Shown: positions 16,129 to 57,549 of the stretch, piece by piece
How the letters are laid out: each line of letters starts with the position of its first letter
Position numbering within the stretch: position 1 is the first letter of the stretch
NCBI GenBank assembly: GCA_000531095.1
Contig: HG799462.1
Span: forward strand, 417,743 to 481,742
Direction: 5' to 3'
Source: Gemmata massiliana
Lineage (GTDB): Bacteria; Planctomycetota; Planctomycetia; Gemmatales; Gemmataceae
Length of the DNA: 64,000 nucleotides
Translations under genes and position numbers: made by a program
The notes under the pieces: generated by a model
What the model was told of the DNA's origin: nothing
What the model saw: the letters and a program-made list of their open reading frames with translations, nothing else
The model's database searches: none

Positions 16129-17247
16129 TCAACCGATCACGGGTTGTCGTTCGGCAATATCCAGTCGAGTCACCCACTCGCTCAAGAATGCCGCCCTTAC
16201 CCGGGCCGCGTGGTCAGCCTCGTCCGGCGAAACACACACAAATTGCACCCGGTCGTTTGGGCGGAGTTGGGCGAGTAGGTCGAGATCGGCGCGGATGACG
16301 TGTGCGACCTTTGGGTACCCACCAATCGTTTGACCGTCGACCCCGAGAACGATCGGCAGCCCGTCGTTCGTCACTTGCACGGCTCCTGGGGCTACCGCTT
16401 CTGACACGAGTTCGCCGGGCACACGCGAAAGAGGCGCTCCCTTCAAGCGAAGCCCCATGCGATTACTCGCGGCCGATACTTCGTAGGTCTGGGTGAAGAA
16501 TGTGTCGTCAGTGAACCAATCACGTTGGGGACCGTTGAGCACACGGAGTGAGTGGACAGAACCTACCCCCCCATCCCCCCTCCCTAAAGGGAAGGGGGAG
16601 CAAGAACCTAACCCCCTAACCCCCTTCCCTAGGAAGGAAGGGGGAACAGGACCAAAACCAGCATAAACAAAGCAATCCGCGATGGTTTTAAGCCCCTCTC
16701 CGTTTAGGGGAGGGGTTGGGGAGGGGTTCTTCTCCCCCTTCCCTTCAGGGAGGGGGGACGAGGGAGTAGGTCTTGCCTCACAGAACGGCAAGCTACGCGA
16801 CTCTGTGCGGCTTACAGCACACTGGAGCGTGTCCCCGGCCCGAATCGGCTCCAGTGCCGAACGGCTGCCGAGTATCTCTTCTGCGTGAAAGCCCCCTGCG
16901 ACGCACAGATATGCTCGTGCGCCGGTGCGCGTGCCACCTACACGCAATACGTTACCGGGTTCGAGTGTGAATGTAGTGCCCGTTGGCAGCGGGTTCCCGT
17001 TTAGCGTGCTCTGAAACGGCGCACCGAAGATGACGCACGCGACCGGGTGATGAGCCTCAAGTGTTGGTCCTGCAAATGCGACTTCCAGCGCGACCGCGTG
17101 GAGCGGATTGCCGACAAGTGCGTTGCCCAAAGTGAGTGCGGCGCGGTCGGCGGCGCCGCCAACGGATACGCCCAGCGCCCGGCTGCGCTCGCGTCCGAAA
17201 TCAACGAGCAGCGATTGCAACCCGGGTTCACGAACAGTCAGGCTCAT
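16129..17247 (-). CDS. pxpC: 5-oxoprolinase subunit C (biotin-dependent carboxyltransferase type), with repeat insertion
   Basis: PxpC with PxpA and PxpB hydrolyses 5-oxoproline to glutamate using ATP. The 372-residue product has the family blocks 'REPGLQSLLVDFGRERSRAL', 'SVGGAADRAALTLGNALVGN', 'LRVGGTRTGARAYLCVAGGF', 'LRVLNGPQRDWF', 'SNRMGLRLKGAPL' and 'TIGGYPKVAHVI'. Its ATG overlaps the pxpA stop (ATGA). Residues about 158-230, between two conserved blocks, are encoded by GC-rich palindromic repeats and make the protein longer than its family. Whether it is still active is unclear. No pxpB gene is adjacent. Confidence 0.9.
   Translation of the reverse strand: MSLTVREPGLQSLLVDFGRERSRALGVSVGGAADRAALTLGNALVGNPLHAVALEVAFAGPTLEAHHPVACVIFGAPFQSTLNGNPLPTGTTFTLEPGNVLRVGGTRTGARAYLCVAGGFHAEEILGSRSALEPIRAGDTLQCAVSRTESRSLPFCEARPTPSSPLPEGKGEKNPSPTPPLNGEGLKTIADCFVYAGFGPVPPSFLGKGVRGLGSCSPFPLGRGDGGVGSVHSLRVLNGPQRDWFTDDTFFTQTYEVSAASNRMGLRLKGAPLSRVPGELVSEAVAPGAVQVTNDGLPIVLGVDGQTIGGYPKVAHVIRADLDLLAQLRPNDRVQFVCVSPDEADHAARVRAAFLSEWVTRLDIAERQPVIG
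16559..16770. repeat. GC-rich palindromic repeat cluster inside pxpC (four units)
   Basis: Two units in one direction (about 16559-16600 and 16603-16650) and two in the other (about 16687-16730 and 16731-16770). Each has a core such as CCCCCTTCCCT paired with AGGGAAGGGGG and a flank like AACCTAACCCCCTAA. The reading frame of pxpC continues through all four units. The same family occurs at 36907-37026 and 54949-55102. Confidence 0.85.
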
Positions 17248-35080: not shown

Positions 35081-36832
35081 TCAAGTTATCGGGTTCTGCT
35101 TTCGGCGCGCGAGTTCCTTCATCACATCGGCCAACCCGCGTGTGTTGAACACATCGTCCTTTGTAAGCCACCCGCGGCGCGCGACTTGAACTCCGAACGT
35201 GTAAAGCGCCAGTTCGCCGGTGCTGTGAGCGTCCGGGTTTATGACGATCGGAATACCCATCGCCTTGGCCTGCTTCACGTACTTCCAGTCGAGATCGAGG
35301 CGCGACGGCTGGGCGTTGATCTCGATCATCTTGCCGTGCTTCGCGGCGACCTTCAGCACTTCGTCGAGGTTGATTTTGTACCCCTCGCGCTTGAGCAGCA
35401 AGCGCCCGGTCGCGTGCCCGAGCATCGTCACCGCGGGATGCGAGAGCGCCTTGCACACGCGGGCCGTCATTTCGGCTTCCGTCATCCCGAAGTGCGAGTG
35501 AACGCTCGCGACGACGTACTCAAAACCCGCAAGCAGCTCATCGGTGTAGTCGAGCGAGCCGTCTTCGAGGATATCCACCTCGCTGCCCTTCAGAATGCGC
35601 ACGCCGTCAAGCTTCGCGTTCACGCGATCAATCTCGGCCCACTGCTTCCGCACCACGTTAGACGGAAGCCCCCGCGCGATGGTCAGGGACTGGGAGTGAT
35701 CGCCGACGCCGAAATACTCGAAGCCGAGTTGCTTCGCCGCGAGCGCCATCTCCTCGAGGGACGCGGTGCCGTCGCTGTAGGTGGTATGGTTGTGAAACAC
35801 GCCGCGGATGTCGGAGTCCACAACCAGAGCGGGGAGTTTCTTCTGCTCGCCGGCTTCGATCTCTCCAGTGTCTTCTCGCAGTTCGGGCTGAATGTACGGC
35901 AGGTCGAGCGCGGCGAAGATGTCCGCTTCGTCCTTGCACGGCACCGAGCGCGTTTCGTTCGCGAGCGCGTACTCGTTGAGGGAAAGGCCGCGGTCGATCG
36001 CGCGCTGGCGCATCCGAATGTTGTGCTCCTTGCTCCCGGTGAAGTAGTGGAGCGCGAACGGGTATTGAGCGTCTTCAACGACGCGGAGGTCGGCCTGGAG
36101 CGTGACCTTCGTGCCGTGAACGTGCAGCCCGGCGACCACGCTCGACTTCGTTGGCCCCTGCCCCAAGACCTGGATCACTTCGGGAATCTTGACGAACGCA
36201 TCCATGATGGGCTGGGCGTTCGCGCTACTCACTAGGATGTCGAGGTCCGCGACCGTCTCCTTCCGCCGCCGAAGACTCCCACACAACTCGGCGCGAATGA
36301 CCCCCGGGAACATGCGGATCTGTTCGAGGAGCGCCTGGCCCAGCGGCAGCGCGAGATCGATCCGCACGCGGTGCCCGACTTGGTCGATGTACGCGATCCC
36401 TTCGAGGATCCGGGTCTGAGTCTTCGCGCCGAACCCTTTTTGCTTCGCGACCTCACCCGACTCGCACGCAGCCTTCAGCTTCTCAATCGAGTCGATGTTC
36501 AGCAGATCGTGAAGCGCCTTGACTTTCTTCGGCCCGAGTCCCGGCAGCCGGAGCATCTTCACGAGCCCCGCCGGAATCGAAGCGCGCAGGTCTTCGAGGT
36601 ACGGTAAATTCCCGGTCGTTACGAGCGTGGTGATCTTCAGCGCGAGCGCTTCACCGATGCCGCGCACCTCGGCCAGTTTCCTGTCCGCGACCATCTGCGC
36701 CAGGTCGCCGGGCAACTGCTGAACGAGCCGCGCCGCGTTGTGGTAGGCGTTCGTGCGGAACGTGTTCTCGCCCTTGAGTTCGAGAAGGGTGCCGATCTCG
36801 TCGAGGGCGTCGGCAACGTCGTCTTTGGTCAC
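35081..36832 (-). CDS. polX: DNA polymerase/3'-5' exonuclease PolX (PHP type)
   Basis: 583 residues from a GTG with GAGGAA nine bases upstream; the longer open frame upstream is only readthrough of palindromic repeats. Order: helix-hairpin-helix N-terminal domain ('LEDLRASIPAGLVKMLRLPG'), family X nucleotidyltransferase domain ('GSLRRRKETVADLDILVSS', with DxD), fingers/thumb, and C-terminal PHP domain (about 335-580) with 'FHNHTTYSDGTASLEEM', 'GVGDHSQS', 'GSEVDILEDG', 'VASVHSHFG' and 'VINPDAHST', all metal ligands present. Role in base-excision/gap repair by family analogy. Confidence 0.95.
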   Translation of the reverse strand: MTKDDVADALDEIGTLLELKGENTFRTNAYHNAARLVQQLPGDLAQMVADRKLAEVRGIGEALALKITTLVTTGNLPYLEDLRASIPAGLVKMLRLPGLGPKKVKALHDLLNIDSIEKLKAACESGEVAKQKGFGAKTQTRILEGIAYIDQVGHRVRIDLALPLGQALLEQIRMFPGVIRAELCGSLRRRKETVADLDILVSSANAQPIMDAFVKIPEVIQVLGQGPTKSSVVAGLHVHGTKVTLQADLRVVEDAQYPFALHYFTGSKEHNIRMRQRAIDRGLSLNEYALANETRSVPCKDEADIFAALDLPYIQPELREDTGEIEAGEQKKLPALVVDSDIRGVFHNHTTYSDGTASLEEMALAAKQLGFEYFGVGDHSQSLTIARGLPSNVVRKQWAEIDRVNAKLDGVRILKGSEVDILEDGSLDYTDELLAGFEYVVASVHSHFGMTEAEMTARVCKALSHPAVTMLGHATGRLLLKREGYKINLDEVLKVAAKHGKMIEINAQPSRLDLDWKYVKQAKAMGIPIVINPDAHSTGELALYTFGVQVARRGWLTKDDVFNTRGLADVMKELARRKQNPIT

Positions 36833-36906
36833 GGTTCGGTTCCTCACTAAAGGTGGTGTGAGGATACCAAAAGAGAGGATCAGAGGGGATGTTGGAGGCG
36901 GCCGAG

Positions 36907-37026
36907 AACCTACCCCCTCAACCCCCTCCCTAAAGGGAAGGAAAACCACTTACCGAGTGCGTTCCCAATCACAGAGATTTCGCGCGCCTGTTCCCCTTCC
37001 CTTTAGGGAGGGGTTGGGGGTAGGTG
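36907..37026. repeat. GC-rich palindromic repeat pair, inverted
   Basis: One unit at about 36907-36947 (AACCTACCCCCTCAACCCCC..., TCCCTAAAGGGA core) and an inverted unit at about 36990-37026 (...CCCTTTAGGGAGG...). Same family as inside pxpC and the FAD/Fe-S gene, but here non-coding, between polX and the next minus-strand gene. Confidence 0.85.
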
Positions 37027-54417: not shown

Positions 54418-57400
54418 GTGCTAGACGAGAAGCAAATCACCGACGACCTCCGCGGCCAGTTCCGCGGGCGGTTGCACTTCGACCGGCTCACGCGCGGGCT
54501 ATTCGCCACCGACGCCAGCCCGTTCCAGATCGAACCCCACGCGGTCGCGGTTCCCGAAGACACCGAAAGTGTTGCGGCGCTCGTTCGCTACTGCCACGAA
54601 CACGCCATCCCCCTCACTCCACGCGGCGCGGGAACCGGCCTCGCCGGGGAGTCTCTGAACTCCGGCATCGTGTTGGATCTGAGCGTTCATTTCCGCCGCG
54701 TGCTCGCTGTGGGGGCGGATACGGTAACGGTTCAACCCGGTGTAGTGCTAAACGAACTCAATGCGGCGCTCGCAAAAGTGGGTCGGCGATTCGCCCCGAA
54801 CCCGGCCAGTTCCGCGACCTGCACCATCGGCGGGATGATCGCGACGAACGCCTCTGGCGGAAATTCCTTCCACTACGGCTACACGCGCGATTATGTCGCC
54901 GGGCTGGAAGTCGTGTGGGACAACGGAGAAATAACTTGGGTGGGCGTAGGTAAGAGACCTCCCCCCCCGTTCCCGGCAGAGCAGGCACCCACTGAGTTTC
55001 CTCCCCCTTCCTTCTTAGGGAAGGGCGTTAGGGGGTTAGGTTCTACCTCTAACCCCTCACCAACCACGCCCCTAAACGGAGAGGGGCTTAAAACAACACG
55101 CCACGACACGATCAACCGAGAAGTCACCAAGCTCCTGAACTTCAACGCCGAACGCATCGCGATCACGCGCACGCGGACACCGTTCGACCGATGTGCGTAC
55201 CAGCTCCACGGCATCCTCAATGGAGATGTAGTCGATCTCGCGAAATTACTCGTCGGGTCCGAAGGCACGCTCGGGGTTATTACCGAGGCCACTCTGCGCA
55301 CAATCCCGCTCCCCGGTGGAACGTGTCTCGCGCTGATCGGTTTCCCCACACTCGACGCGGCCGTGCGCGCGGGGCTCGCACTGCGACGGTACGGCCCGGT
55401 CGCGTGCGATTTACTCGACCGTCGGCTGCTCTCGCTCACACGCGGAACGGGCATTCCGGACGTAGGCGCGGCGCTCATGGTTGTATTTGAGGCCAGCACT
55501 GAGCGCGAAGCGACCGAGCGCGCATGGGGCGCAATCGAATCCCTGCAACGGGAGCACATTCTGCGCGTGCTCGCCGAACCGACCTGCGACCCCGAGGGCA
55601 TCGCACACATTCGCGGTATTCGCGCGGCCGCGGTATCGGGCCTGTACGCACAAAATGGCCAGCGCCCGGTCGCGTTCGTCGAAGACATCGGGGTACCGGC
55701 CGATTCGCTCCCCGAGTTCCTCACCAAAGCGCAGGACATCCTGAAGCAGTTCGAGACGAGCGGCACGTTCCTCGTTCACGCGCTCACCGGCCAAGTTCAT
55801 ACGCGCCCGCTGCTCGACCTCAACGAACCCACGGACCGCGCCAAGCTGTGGCCGCTCGCGGAAGCCATACACGGACTGGCACTCGCGCTCCACGGAACCG
55901 TTAGCACACAGCACGGTACCGGCATCGCCCGCACGCCGTGGGTCGAGCGACAGTACGGACCGCTCGTTCCCGTGTTTCGCGAACTCAAGCGCATTTTCGA
56001 CCCGAAGGGCATTCTGAACCCGGGGAAGATCGTCGGCCCCGATCCGAGCCGCGAAGCGTGGCCCCTGCGCCCAGCGTTCCGAAATCAGGAACCCGAGACA
56101 ACCACCACCGAAAAGGAAAGCAAAAAGCACGACACGGAGGTGGACGCACCACCAGCCGAGCCTTCCGTTCGACCATCTTCTGCTACCCCGCTACTCGTGT
56201 GGTCTTCGTCTTCCCCGGAAGCGGAAGTGCGCCGGTGCAACGGGTGCGGCGACTGCCGAACTCGCACCGCACCAGACCGAATGTGTCCGTCCTTCCGAGC
56301 GACTGGAAATGAAGTCACCACCCCGCGTGCGATGGCGAACACGCTCCGCGTGCTGGCCGACCCGACGGCCGCGACCCCAGAAGAGGTGCGTGCGGTCGCC
56401 GAGTTGTGTGTGAACTGCAAGATGTGCCGCGACGATTGCAACGCGAAGGTCAACGTCCCCAAACTCATGCTCGAAGCCAAGGCCCAACGCTTCGCAGAAC
56501 ACGGTTTGGAGCGCGGCGACTGGATTCTAGCCCGAGCGGAAGGGCTGGCGTCGATCGGGAGCAATTTCGCACCCATCGTGAACGCGATGCTCGGTCGGCG
56601 TTCGGTGCGCTGGCTCATGGAGAAGTTCGTTGGTATCTCGCGCCAACGCCGGCTCCCCGCATTTTCGCTCCGCACCTTCTTCCGGCGCGCACGCGGACTC
56701 GGCCTGACGCGCCGAAAACGACGGGCCGGAGATCAAAGAACGAACCACGCGCTCCCATCCCTGGTGCCTCACACATCGGACCGCGTCGCGCTCTTCGTCG
56801 ATGTGTTCGCAGCGTACAACGACCCGCTCATCGGAATGGCCGCGGTCGCGGTGTTACAGCACCACGGAATCGAAGTGTTCGTTCCACCGCGACAGGTCGG
56901 CAGCGGCATCGCACCGTTCGCGAAGGGCGATCTCGAATCCGCGCGCGAGTCAGCCCTACGCAACGTGCGCGTATTCGCAGACCTCACGCGCGAAGGCTAC
57001 CGCATCGTCTGCCTGGAACCGACGTCTGCCCTCATGCTGACGCAGGACTACCTAGACATTCTGCCGGACCCCGACACCGCGGCCGTCGCTGCGAACACGA
57101 TCGAACTCACCGCGTACCTCAACGAGTTGCACACTGCGGGGCGGCTCCGCACCGACTTCCGCAAGCTCGAAGTAACGCTCGGGCACCACGTCCCCTGTCA
57201 CATGAAAGCTCTACGCCGCACCGCACCGGCCCTCACACTGCTCCAACTCATTCCCGGTCTGCGGGTGCATACAATTGATGCGGGTTGTTCGGGCATGGCA
57301 GGCACTTGGGGCTTGAAATCCGAGAACTACGCGACGTCACTCGCGGCCGGTGCGGGGATGCTCGCGGAACTGAACCGCCCGCGCGTGCTATTCGGTTCGA

Positions 57401-57549
57401 CCGAGTGCAGTGCCTGCCGGATGCAGATGGAAGAAGGTAGCGGAAAGCGCACGCTCCACCCGGTGCAGTACCTCGCTTACGCTTACGGCCTGCTCCCCGA
57501 ACTCGAACCGCGGTTCCACAAGCCCCTCGGCGACCTCGTGAGCGACTGA
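54418..57549 (+). CDS. FAD-linked oxidase fused to Fe-S/CCG oxidoreductase (GlcD-GlcF type)
   Basis: 1043 residues from GTG. FAD_binding_4 domain about 30-175 ('VPEDTESVAALVRYCHEHAI', 'PRGAGTGLAGESLNSGIVLD', 'TIGGMIATNASGGNSFHYGY'), oxidase C-terminal domain to about 540 ('GTVSTQHGTGIARTPWVERQ'), then two 4Fe-4S clusters ('CNGCGDCRTRTAPDRMC', 'CVNCKMCRDDC') and CCG-type domain ('HHVPCHMKALRR', 'DAGCSGMAGTWG', 'GSTECSACRMQM'). Likely a D-2-hydroxyacid (lactate/glycolate) dehydrogenase. Residues about 178-228, just after the FAD domain, are encoded by palindromic repeats. moaD starts 1 bp after the stop. Confidence 0.93.
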   Translation: MLDEKQITDDLRGQFRGRLHFDRLTRGLFATDASPFQIEPHAVAVPEDTESVAALVRYCHEHAIPLTPRGAGTGLAGESLNSGIVLDLSVHFRRVLAVGADTVTVQPGVVLNELNAALAKVGRRFAPNPASSATCTIGGMIATNASGGNSFHYGYTRDYVAGLEVVWDNGEITWVGVGKRPPPPFPAEQAPTEFPPPSFLGKGVRGLGSTSNPSPTTPLNGEGLKTTRHDTINREVTKLLNFNAERIAITRTRTPFDRCAYQLHGILNGDVVDLAKLLVGSEGTLGVITEATLRTIPLPGGTCLALIGFPTLDAAVRAGLALRRYGPVACDLLDRRLLSLTRGTGIPDVGAALMVVFEASTEREATERAWGAIESLQREHILRVLAEPTCDPEGIAHIRGIRAAAVSGLYAQNGQRPVAFVEDIGVPADSLPEFLTKAQDILKQFETSGTFLVHALTGQVHTRPLLDLNEPTDRAKLWPLAEAIHGLALALHGTVSTQHGTGIARTPWVERQYGPLVPVFRELKRIFDPKGILNPGKIVGPDPSREAWPLRPAFRNQEPETTTTEKESKKHDTEVDAPPAEPSVRPSSATPLLVWSSSSPEAEVRRCNGCGDCRTRTAPDRMCPSFRATGNEVTTPRAMANTLRVLADPTAATPEEVRAVAELCVNCKMCRDDCNAKVNVPKLMLEAKAQRFAEHGLERGDWILARAEGLASIGSNFAPIVNAMLGRRSVRWLMEKFVGISRQRRLPAFSLRTFFRRARGLGLTRRKRRAGDQRTNHALPSLVPHTSDRVALFVDVFAAYNDPLIGMAAVAVLQHHGIEVFVPPRQVGSGIAPFAKGDLESARESALRNVRVFADLTREGYRIVCLEPTSALMLTQDYLDILPDPDTAAVAANTIELTAYLNELHTAGRLRTDFRKLEVTLGHHVPCHMKALRRTAPALTLLQLIPGLRVHTIDAGCSGMAGTWGLKSENYATSLAAGAGMLAELNRPRVLFGSTECSACRMQMEEGSGKRTLHPVQYLAYAYGLLPELEPRFHKPLGDLVSD
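54949..55102. repeat. GC-rich palindromic repeats inside the FAD/Fe-S gene
   Basis: Three units: a degenerate one (about 54954-54975), one at about 54999-55043 (CCTCCCCCTTCCTTCTTAGG start) and an inverted one (about 55043-55090, ending CCCTAAACGGAGAGGGGCTT). They keep the gene frame open and encode 'PPSFLGKGVRGLGS' and 'PLNGEGLKT', the same peptides as in pxpC. Confidence 0.85.

Follow-up and report, generated by a model that had tools for sequence, protein, structure and literature searches.

The window analysed here, i.e. the whole stretch of 64,000 nucleotides at C1:417743-481742 of the Gemmata massiliana genome (G000; 9.27 Mb in 22 contigs), contains three arrays of palindromic units, the largest of which was predicted to interrupt pxpC without breaking its frame (Table 1). 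The pxpC product was matched by PF02626 (E 6.5e-74) as two stretches on either side of an insert comprising residues 159-230 approximately, counted from the MSL start. The nearest solved structure by sequence is E. coli YbgK (PDB 5dud), and a predicted PxpC model (25 aligned sequences) resembles it in fold (TMt 0.85). When mapped on this model the insert was placed between two strands, one of which ends at residue 142 while the next starts at residue 231, and pLDDT was below 50 over most insert residues (161-165, 170-218 and 221-227). The insert is thus predicted to be mostly disordered.

The claim that palindromic units reside in frame in pxpC is borne out by four matches to unit HMMs, an open frame and the flanking PF02626 stretches. 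The four units are not equivalent, however, as the middle two make up a 124-nt composite that recurs genome-wide as a block. The insert consists of nested inverted hairpins, with an outer B pair (40 nt, 90% complementary) enclosing this composite, and the composite itself consists of two inverted hairpins with a spacer, as seen in an alignment of 24 copies. The pxpC composite (C1:434347-434470 in genome coordinates) scored 131 bits with nhmmer over positions 1-124, and 147 bits with R1, the model built from the alignment of the 24 composites. Folded as single-stranded DNA, the insert reached -72.2 kcal/mol (z -9.58 against 200 dinucleotide shuffles). A palindrome pattern scan over the entire window gave 12 matches, all in pxpC or at 55003, compared to 0.11 expected from shuffles. 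GTAG REPs are marked by a GTAG tetranucleotide at one stem end; many B units, as read, end with GGGTAGG, though at the 3′ side of their hairpin.

Table 1. Features of the window discussed in the text, with positions counted from the first nucleotide of the window.
Feature	Position	Strand	Remarks
pxpC (5-oxoprolinase subunit C, carboxyltransferase subdomain A and B)	16129..17247	-	372 aa from MSL start; host of insert
In-frame palindromic insert, about 71 codons	16561..16771	-	frame open throughout; fold; low pLDDT
Outer hairpin unit (B type), 5′ in pxpC	16733..16771	.	unit HMM match; inverted partner 16561-16600; peptide SPLPEGKGE
Composite (A type), 124 nt: hairpin AL + spacer + inverted hairpin AR	16605..16728	-	ends AACCCC...TTAGGTT
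AL hairpin unit of pxpC composite	16687..16727	-	unit HMM 51.1 bits; peptide NPSPTPPLNGEGLKT
AR hairpin unit of pxpC composite	16606..16649	-	unit HMM 49.8 bits; peptide PPSFLGKGVRGLGS
Outer hairpin unit (B type), 3′ in pxpC	16561..16599	.	unit HMM 42.9 bits; peptide SPFPLGRGDGGVG
Third window array, inverted pair of units	36908..37025	.	unit HMM 26-29 bits; 5′ side of ORF 35081-36949 (-)
FAD-linked oxidase / Fe-S protein gene, second host	54418..57549	+	PF01565, PF02913, Fer4
AR unit in frame in FAD/Fe-S gene	55001..55041	+	unit HMM 44.5 bits
AL unit in frame in FAD/Fe-S gene	55052..55092	+	unit HMM 39.1 bits

The recurrence of the pxpC peptides PPSFLGKGVRGLGS and PLNGEGLKT in the FAD/Fe-S ORF was confirmed, and the AR and AL units follow each other there in the reverse of the pxpC order. 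The repeat had originally been drawn from 54949 onwards, where judgement by eye against G001, the genome of the sister species, suggests a truncated third unit. In relatives this site holds a different mix of units (G001) or a linker without detected units (G002). The called ORF at 35081-36949 (-), whose product presumably resembles a PolX-type polymerase, begins inside the third array and thereby acquires an N-terminal repeat peptide (MVFLPFREGVEGVGS); its true start probably lies downstream of the array.

A reading of the insert as structured RNA was dropped, since not one of the 26 pairs in model R1 changed on both sides and Rfam matches in window positions 16400-16900 were all below the curated cut-offs.

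A dispersed hairpin family in Gemmata

A DNA search with the pxpC insert returned at least 96 matches (40 of 158 candidates scored), and a search of G000 with R1 returned at least 136 matches at E<=1e-3; as 150 of 2492 candidates were scored, the true number of R1 copies may be higher. After exclusion of opposite-strand and overlapping rows, 116 of the 136 matches were merged into 107 stretches. Within the genus, R1 matches at E<=1e-6 were found in 14 of 19 genomes, among them G001 with 111 and G003 with 94, and were absent from G006, G007, G013, G014 and G015. Under stricter filters, 30 of 95 genomes at the family level contained matches.

Nearly all of the 42 full-length composites inspected in G001 start with AACCCCTCCCC and finish with TAGGTT, while the sequence beyond varies. 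Their ends are inverted and alike, their flanks tend to be G-rich on the left and C-rich on the right, and inspection of these flanks by eye showed no target duplication. Mobility of the element, previously inferred from the window, is supported by the large number of copies that share their ends and reside in unrelated genes.

With two inverted hairpins around a spacer the composite is REPIN-like in anatomy, and its units might be mobilised, as has been suggested for REPs, by a RAYT-like Y1 (HUH) tyrosine transposase. We consider this unlikely. Y1_Tnp matches were found in 16 of the 19 genus genomes, and two of the three in G000 have a composite nearby, C11:21804 at a distance of about 1.2 kb (C11:20539) and C6:505787 at about 3.0 kb (C6:509138). 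The probability that two of three Y1 matches fall within 3.02 kb of a copy, given 107 stretches in 9.27 Mb, is about 0.013, computed after seeing the data. In G003, too, a Y1 match (C1:3636373) is located about 3 kb from a copy (C1:3633252), perhaps representing the same ancestral locus. On the other hand, the complete genome G001 contains 111 repeat matches and zero Y1_Tnp (PF01797) matches, and G006, G007 and G014 contain four to seven Y1_Tnp matches each and zero repeat matches. RAYT genes are described in the literature as being flanked by REPs; at the 30 loci inspected, which extended up to 1.5 kb to either side of a Y1 gene, neither a composite nor a single unit was found. Because two of the three Y1 matches in G000 are near copies, mobilisation by a RAYT is kept as a rival explanation, though not a favoured one.

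Shared sites and their occupants

In the complete, single-contig genome G001, 40 stretches around the best-scoring copies yielded 44 arrays, a sample that is the top-scoring part of the 111 matches and may favour coding copies. Both flanks of 37 arrays were located within one G000 stretch, and 36 of these 37 paired sites carry units in G000. At least 36 of the 44 G001 sites are therefore shared, a figure that is a lower bound and silent on empty sites, because the G000 stretches were, apart from 13 sample stretches, mostly chosen for holding arrays and empty G000 sites could hardly appear.

Full composites on both sides were available for 23 of the 37 paired arrays and, together with pxpC, gave 24 comparisons between the sister species. 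In 15 of the 24 the orthologue had the most similar spacer among all G000 copies compared. In the remaining nine it did not, and three of these have their identity lowered because the spacers compared differ greatly in length. Orientation differs in five of the nine composites with changed spacers, compared to none of the 15 retained ones (Fisher p about 0.003, by hand). As far as can be read from the sequences, sites persist while their occupants change, with nine of the 24 same-site composites appearing to have been replaced and five of those flipped. The clearest case is L249/L164, where the composite spacer has changed and the arms, the flanks and the spacer of the neighbouring B pair were kept; this looks like a cassette copied between conserved arms rather than a fresh insertion. 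No donor of the replaced cassettes was found among the composites of the 24 comparisons.

Inversion of the resident element was not favoured as the cause of the flips, since flipped spacers are no closer mutually than to other copies.

Comparison of PxpC homologues was possible in 17 genomes, the gene being cut by a contig end in G012 and not found in G005. Unit HMMs detected units at the pxpC site in eight of these (G000, G001, G003, G004, G009, G011, G016 and G018) and none in the other nine, which include the five genomes without an R1 match. The layouts vary from the B pair alone in G003 to the B pair around the composite in G000 and a composite in the other orientation in G001; related composites are present in G004 and G016, and the arrays of several species start at nearly the same codon. 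A ParA-like gene contains a 100-nt copy in G001 and a few extra residues only in G000. Both this near absence in the sister species and the lack of detectable units in pxpC of nine readable genomes further support mobility.

The recD2 loop, readable in 18 of the 19 genomes, carries the hairpin family of the window in seven. Perfect inverted repeats of 18-30 nt with sequences unrelated to the family were found in the loops of G004, G006, G007, G011 and G017 (0/300 shuffles each); they sit between the HHH and AAA domains, where the family of the window was undetected. Shorter inverted repeats of 10 and 8 nt occur in G010 and G018 (2/300 shuffles each), the repeat-like linker of G014 is not significant by the inverted-repeat measure (76/300 shuffles), and the search against shuffles gave no inverted repeat in the loops of G002, G013 and G015. 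The G006 palindrome matches a second G006 locus at 29 of 29 positions and that of G011 is 93-96% identical over 28 nt to stretches in G000 and G001; the G007 palindrome had no second copy in the sequence stretches compared.

It could be argued that every site received its copy just once, in an ancestor, all later differences representing only drift, deletion and mutation of that copy. The sharing of at least 36 of 44 G001 sites with G000 and the nearly identical codon at which pxpC arrays begin in several species would fit such a history. It appears very unlikely nevertheless, given that orientation is opposite in five of the 24 comparisons and that in nine the spacer resembles other copies at least as closely as its orthologue. 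Moreover, presence in pxpC and recD2 is patchy on a tree of both genes (some nodes of which are weak), and unrelated perfect palindromes occupy the same recD2 loop.

Several further observations concern these loops. The five recD2-loop palindromes (L342 in G004, L351 in G006, L350 in G007, L354 in G011 and L353 in G017) are five unrelated sequences, each in frame. The MoeA loop contains units of the family in G000 and G001, and inverted repeat-rich linkers of another kind in G007 (L373), G006 (L375), G014 (L377) and G016 (L370), which encode peptides such as SPLHPFTPSP. A repeat encoding the peptide GTRNAE is in frame in two G018 genes, one parA-like (L398) and one recD2 (L343), and is also listed for recD2 of G014 (L352). 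It occupies loops that are used by the hairpin family in other species, and DNA resembling it also occurs in stretches of G000 and G001.

Reading frame and encoded peptide

The quantitative frame test was carried out in G001, because G000 arrays gave mixed frames and comparison of the two genomes revealed single-base gaps and N runs. Arrays less than 400 nt from a stretch end or with duplicate flanks were excluded in both genomes. In G001, 32 of the 44 arrays are located in ORFs that remain open through the array and have coding signal on both sides. Gene calls place one of the remaining 12 within a called gene (L262), one across a gene start (L250) and most others beside genes, and no split gene was seen at any of the 12. 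Pfam searches on the genes flanking five of these 12 gave different families on the two sides in four pairs and no family on one side of L259. At L242 (2916-3557) an array reads as the C-terminal tail of an RnpA-like (RNase P protein) ORF just before a YidD gene. The coding fraction was 0.86 in 400 kb of G001, and 400 kb sampled regardless of copies held just two arrays, too few for statistics. Tolerance of the element within genes, likewise inferred beforehand, is supported by the 32 of 44 sampled arrays in frame and by the lack of split genes among these gene calls.

Pfam families were assigned to 18 of 20 scanned host ORFs in G001, where 29 distinct host ORFs existed, and to 16 of 20 scanned in G000. 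Host families include RsmB, GlnE, CCA nucleotidyltransferase, RecD2, RecO and MoeA. Inserts lie within a single domain match in RNB (287-659, insert 428-469), a ParA-like ATPase (43-317, insert 159-191), Flavoprotein and Methyltransf_11, between domains in RsmB, RecD2, an SNF2 helicase and a CheA-like protein, and after the matched part of MoCF_biosynth in MoeA. The inserts of two paralogous G000 PSCyt2/PSD1 proteins (L101 and L137) share their position but are oppositely oriented.

On each strand the consensus is open in one frame, encoding NPSPTPPLNGEGLKT...PPSFLGKGVRGLGS in one direction and EPNPLTPFPKKEGG...SPSPFRGGVGEGL in the opposite one. Phases in the 32 in-gene G001 arrays were nearly uniform: antisense and sense, respectively, AL units agree in 24/25 and 8/8, AR units in 24/30 and 8/9, and B units in 9/9 and 9/9. 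The original prediction had argued from a shared phase, an argument that does not hold, since stop codons by themselves close all frames but one on each strand, and 849 of 3000 shuffled versions of the consensus are likewise open on both strands. Phase as evidence of design was rejected on these grounds. In G000 many arrays look out of frame, with 21 of 121 passing a threshold that is different from and stricter than the one used for G001, and this counts against tolerance of the element within genes.

Lengths were counted in the top listed matches only (41 of 136 for G000). Composite lengths of the form 3n+1 made up 42/47 of those listed in G001, 39/42 in G003 and 17/20 in G004, G016 and G017 together. 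When the commonest lengths, 124 and 100, are left out, the counts are 9/14, 10/13 and 14/17 (binomial p 0.017, 0.0016 and 5e-5, respectively), or 33 of 44 listed copies when pooled, although these p values are optimistic because the copies are related. Triplet lengths are not a feature of G000 copies, where the count is 9/25. RecD2 linkers are divisible by 3 in all 18 readable genomes out of 19.

For 11 of the 26 in-gene G001 arrays with a G000 counterpart, the two differ by a length not divisible by 3, which speaks against the explanation proposed below unless sequencing error is the cause. The flanks of the two genomes show 19 one-base gaps in 62.5 kb aligned, which could belong to either genome, and G000 arrays such as L100, L176 and L128 show shortened C/G runs and N runs relative to G001. 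Array lengths and frame calls in G000 are unreliable because of these gaps and runs, and we ascribe its out-of-frame arrays to indel errors of the assembly, while some may be real broken alleles.

Eight of the 15 retained composites, namely those in genes, were used to examine constraint on the encoded peptide. Their arrays contain 47 differences, distributed over codon positions 1, 2 and 3 as 11, 12 and 24, compared to 52, 22 and 188 of 262 differences in their flanks. The share of position 3 thus differs between arrays and flanks (24/47 against 188/262, p 0.0013), and deviates in arrays from the uniform expectation with p 0.035. Since this bias is far below that of the flanks, the frame of the inserts appears to be kept while their residues are hardly constrained, and the inserts behave as nearly neutral peptide. 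The option, previously raised, that the element uses coding sites finds no favour in these counts.

There would be only a slim chance, in our view, that the peptide is put to use, i.e. that the inserts are domesticated linkers or interaction segments favoured by selection. The persistence of inserts in core enzymes, the excess of changes at position 3 and the peptide of one strand being commoner in genes (25 AL units antisense, eight sense) would agree with such a use. Besides the weak position bias, it is contradicted by pxpC, recD2 and moeA genes without the insert in related species, by the mostly disordered prediction for the PxpC insert, and by orientation and layout that vary. It is scarcely conceivable that gene calling in GC-rich sequence merely produced the open frame, with inserts being intergenic or the genes dead. 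In favour of such a view, GC-rich DNA yields long chance ORFs, only the 21 of 121 G000 arrays pass, and in the draft assembly of G011 (1430 contigs) the frame of pxpC changes from one side of its array to the other, be this real or an error; the G011 gene also counts against tolerance. Against the view, known domains run in one frame on both sides (several within a single Pfam domain), the recD2 linkers are triplet in length and codon position bias in the flanks is strong.

Proposed explanation and known systems

We consider it probable that these arrays represent a dispersed hairpin family that resides largely within Gemmata protein-coding genes, spreads rarely, exchanges its occupants, is selected for frame and encodes nearly neutral peptide. 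Its core would be the 124-nt composite (ends AACCCC...TTAGGTT), around which additional hairpin units are often found, either beside it or enclosing it. Copies would reach new sites rarely, whereas at an existing site the occupant could be swapped for another copy in either orientation, leaving the flanking gene untouched. Such an exchange might proceed through ectopic recombination or gene conversion between hairpin arms, e.g. during repair after hairpin cleavage. Selection in genes would mainly retain arrays of 3n length in the single stop-free phase of each strand, frame-breaking copies presumably being purged rather than avoided, and arrays sitting in loops or between domains would read as almost neutral peptide. 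This explanation would accommodate what was observed, namely dispersed copies with the same ends, their location in frame and their triplet lengths, sites that persist while occupants change, and weak constraint on the peptide.

More tentatively, and with the odds somewhat against it, certain protein loops could be docking sites in which hairpin breakage and repair keeps exchanging palindromes, even of unrelated families, in either orientation. If this were true, selection for frame would make mobile DNA a steady source of in-frame segments in proteins such as RecD2 and PxpC. From sequence comparison it would seem that short segments of ordinary enzymes are continually rewritten by mobile DNA, by means of swappable in-frame hairpins placed in loops.

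Protein-coding palindromes are best known from Rickettsia. The genus Gemmata adds another phylum that carries them, mostly inside genes in the best-sampled genome G001. Sister species have many sites in common, though not in every case the same occupants, which allows the turnover of mobile DNA inside enzymes to be traced directly. Two questions become testable, namely how hairpins spread without an obvious transposase, and whether inserts are merely tolerated or sometimes feed protein evolution. The arrays also constitute a warning for annotation, as genes that contain them can be intact and some assemblies seem to misread them. Among the matches listed, the literature searched, which covered few subscription papers, gave no report of such elements in Gemmata, and both uses of "palindromic" in the Gemmata massiliana paper concern CRISPR.

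Among known systems, bacterial MITEs with open frames (Correia with 107 nt, ERIC) are described in the available part of one review as short, with inverted ends and frames fused into genes (PMC2229807). The Gemmata repeat is similar in all these respects, whereas the flanks of the 42 composites inspected by eye showed no target duplication; Y1 was the only parent transposon searched for. REPINs with RAYTs have two inverted hairpins with a spacer and many copies, according to the portions seen of PMC3116915 and PMC2817692. Unlike REPINs, Gemmata copies reside in genes rather than mainly between them (32/44 G001 arrays), and they do not track Y1_Tnp across genomes, though two of the three Y1 matches in G000 are near copies. 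The intragenic GTAG and CGTC REPs, as far as the consulted part of PMC3733652 describes them, are hairpin units often paired in opposite orientation, mainly extragenic with some inside ORFs; several are in genes for replication or repair, the carriers comprise several species including a member of the PVC group (O. terrae), and the authors suggest flexible linkers or loops. Gemmata hairpins are likewise paired in opposite orientation inside ORFs, including some repair genes, but their units have an extra CCCC/GGGG arm.

Rickettsia palindromic elements, in the sections available of reviews and a research paper, are 105-146 nt long, in frame in many genes, among them conserved genes unrelated to each other, also present in Wolbachia, and encode a recurrent peptide thought to be neutral or slightly harmful; the first one described had 44 copies, 19 of them in reading frames (PMC2229807, PMC10969869, PMC3733652). 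The comparison with these elements made in the original prediction holds in size, copy number and in-frame shared peptide: the Gemmata composite is a palindrome of 124 nt with at least 136 matches in G000, and its copies are in frame in unrelated genes with shared peptide (32 of 44 G001 arrays). Differences are the host, a planctomycete with a genome of 9-10 Mb, the approximately three quarters of sampled G001 arrays that are in genes, and the exchange of occupants at a fixed site, of which those sections give no description for the Rickettsia elements. The kind as such is already known, and in the portions of the sources consulted mostly intragenic residence together with occupant exchange at fixed sites was not found described. 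Set beside the Rickettsia palindromic elements by description, the Gemmata family appears to have its closest known kind there, in the sense that it works like these elements rather than that it is one of them.
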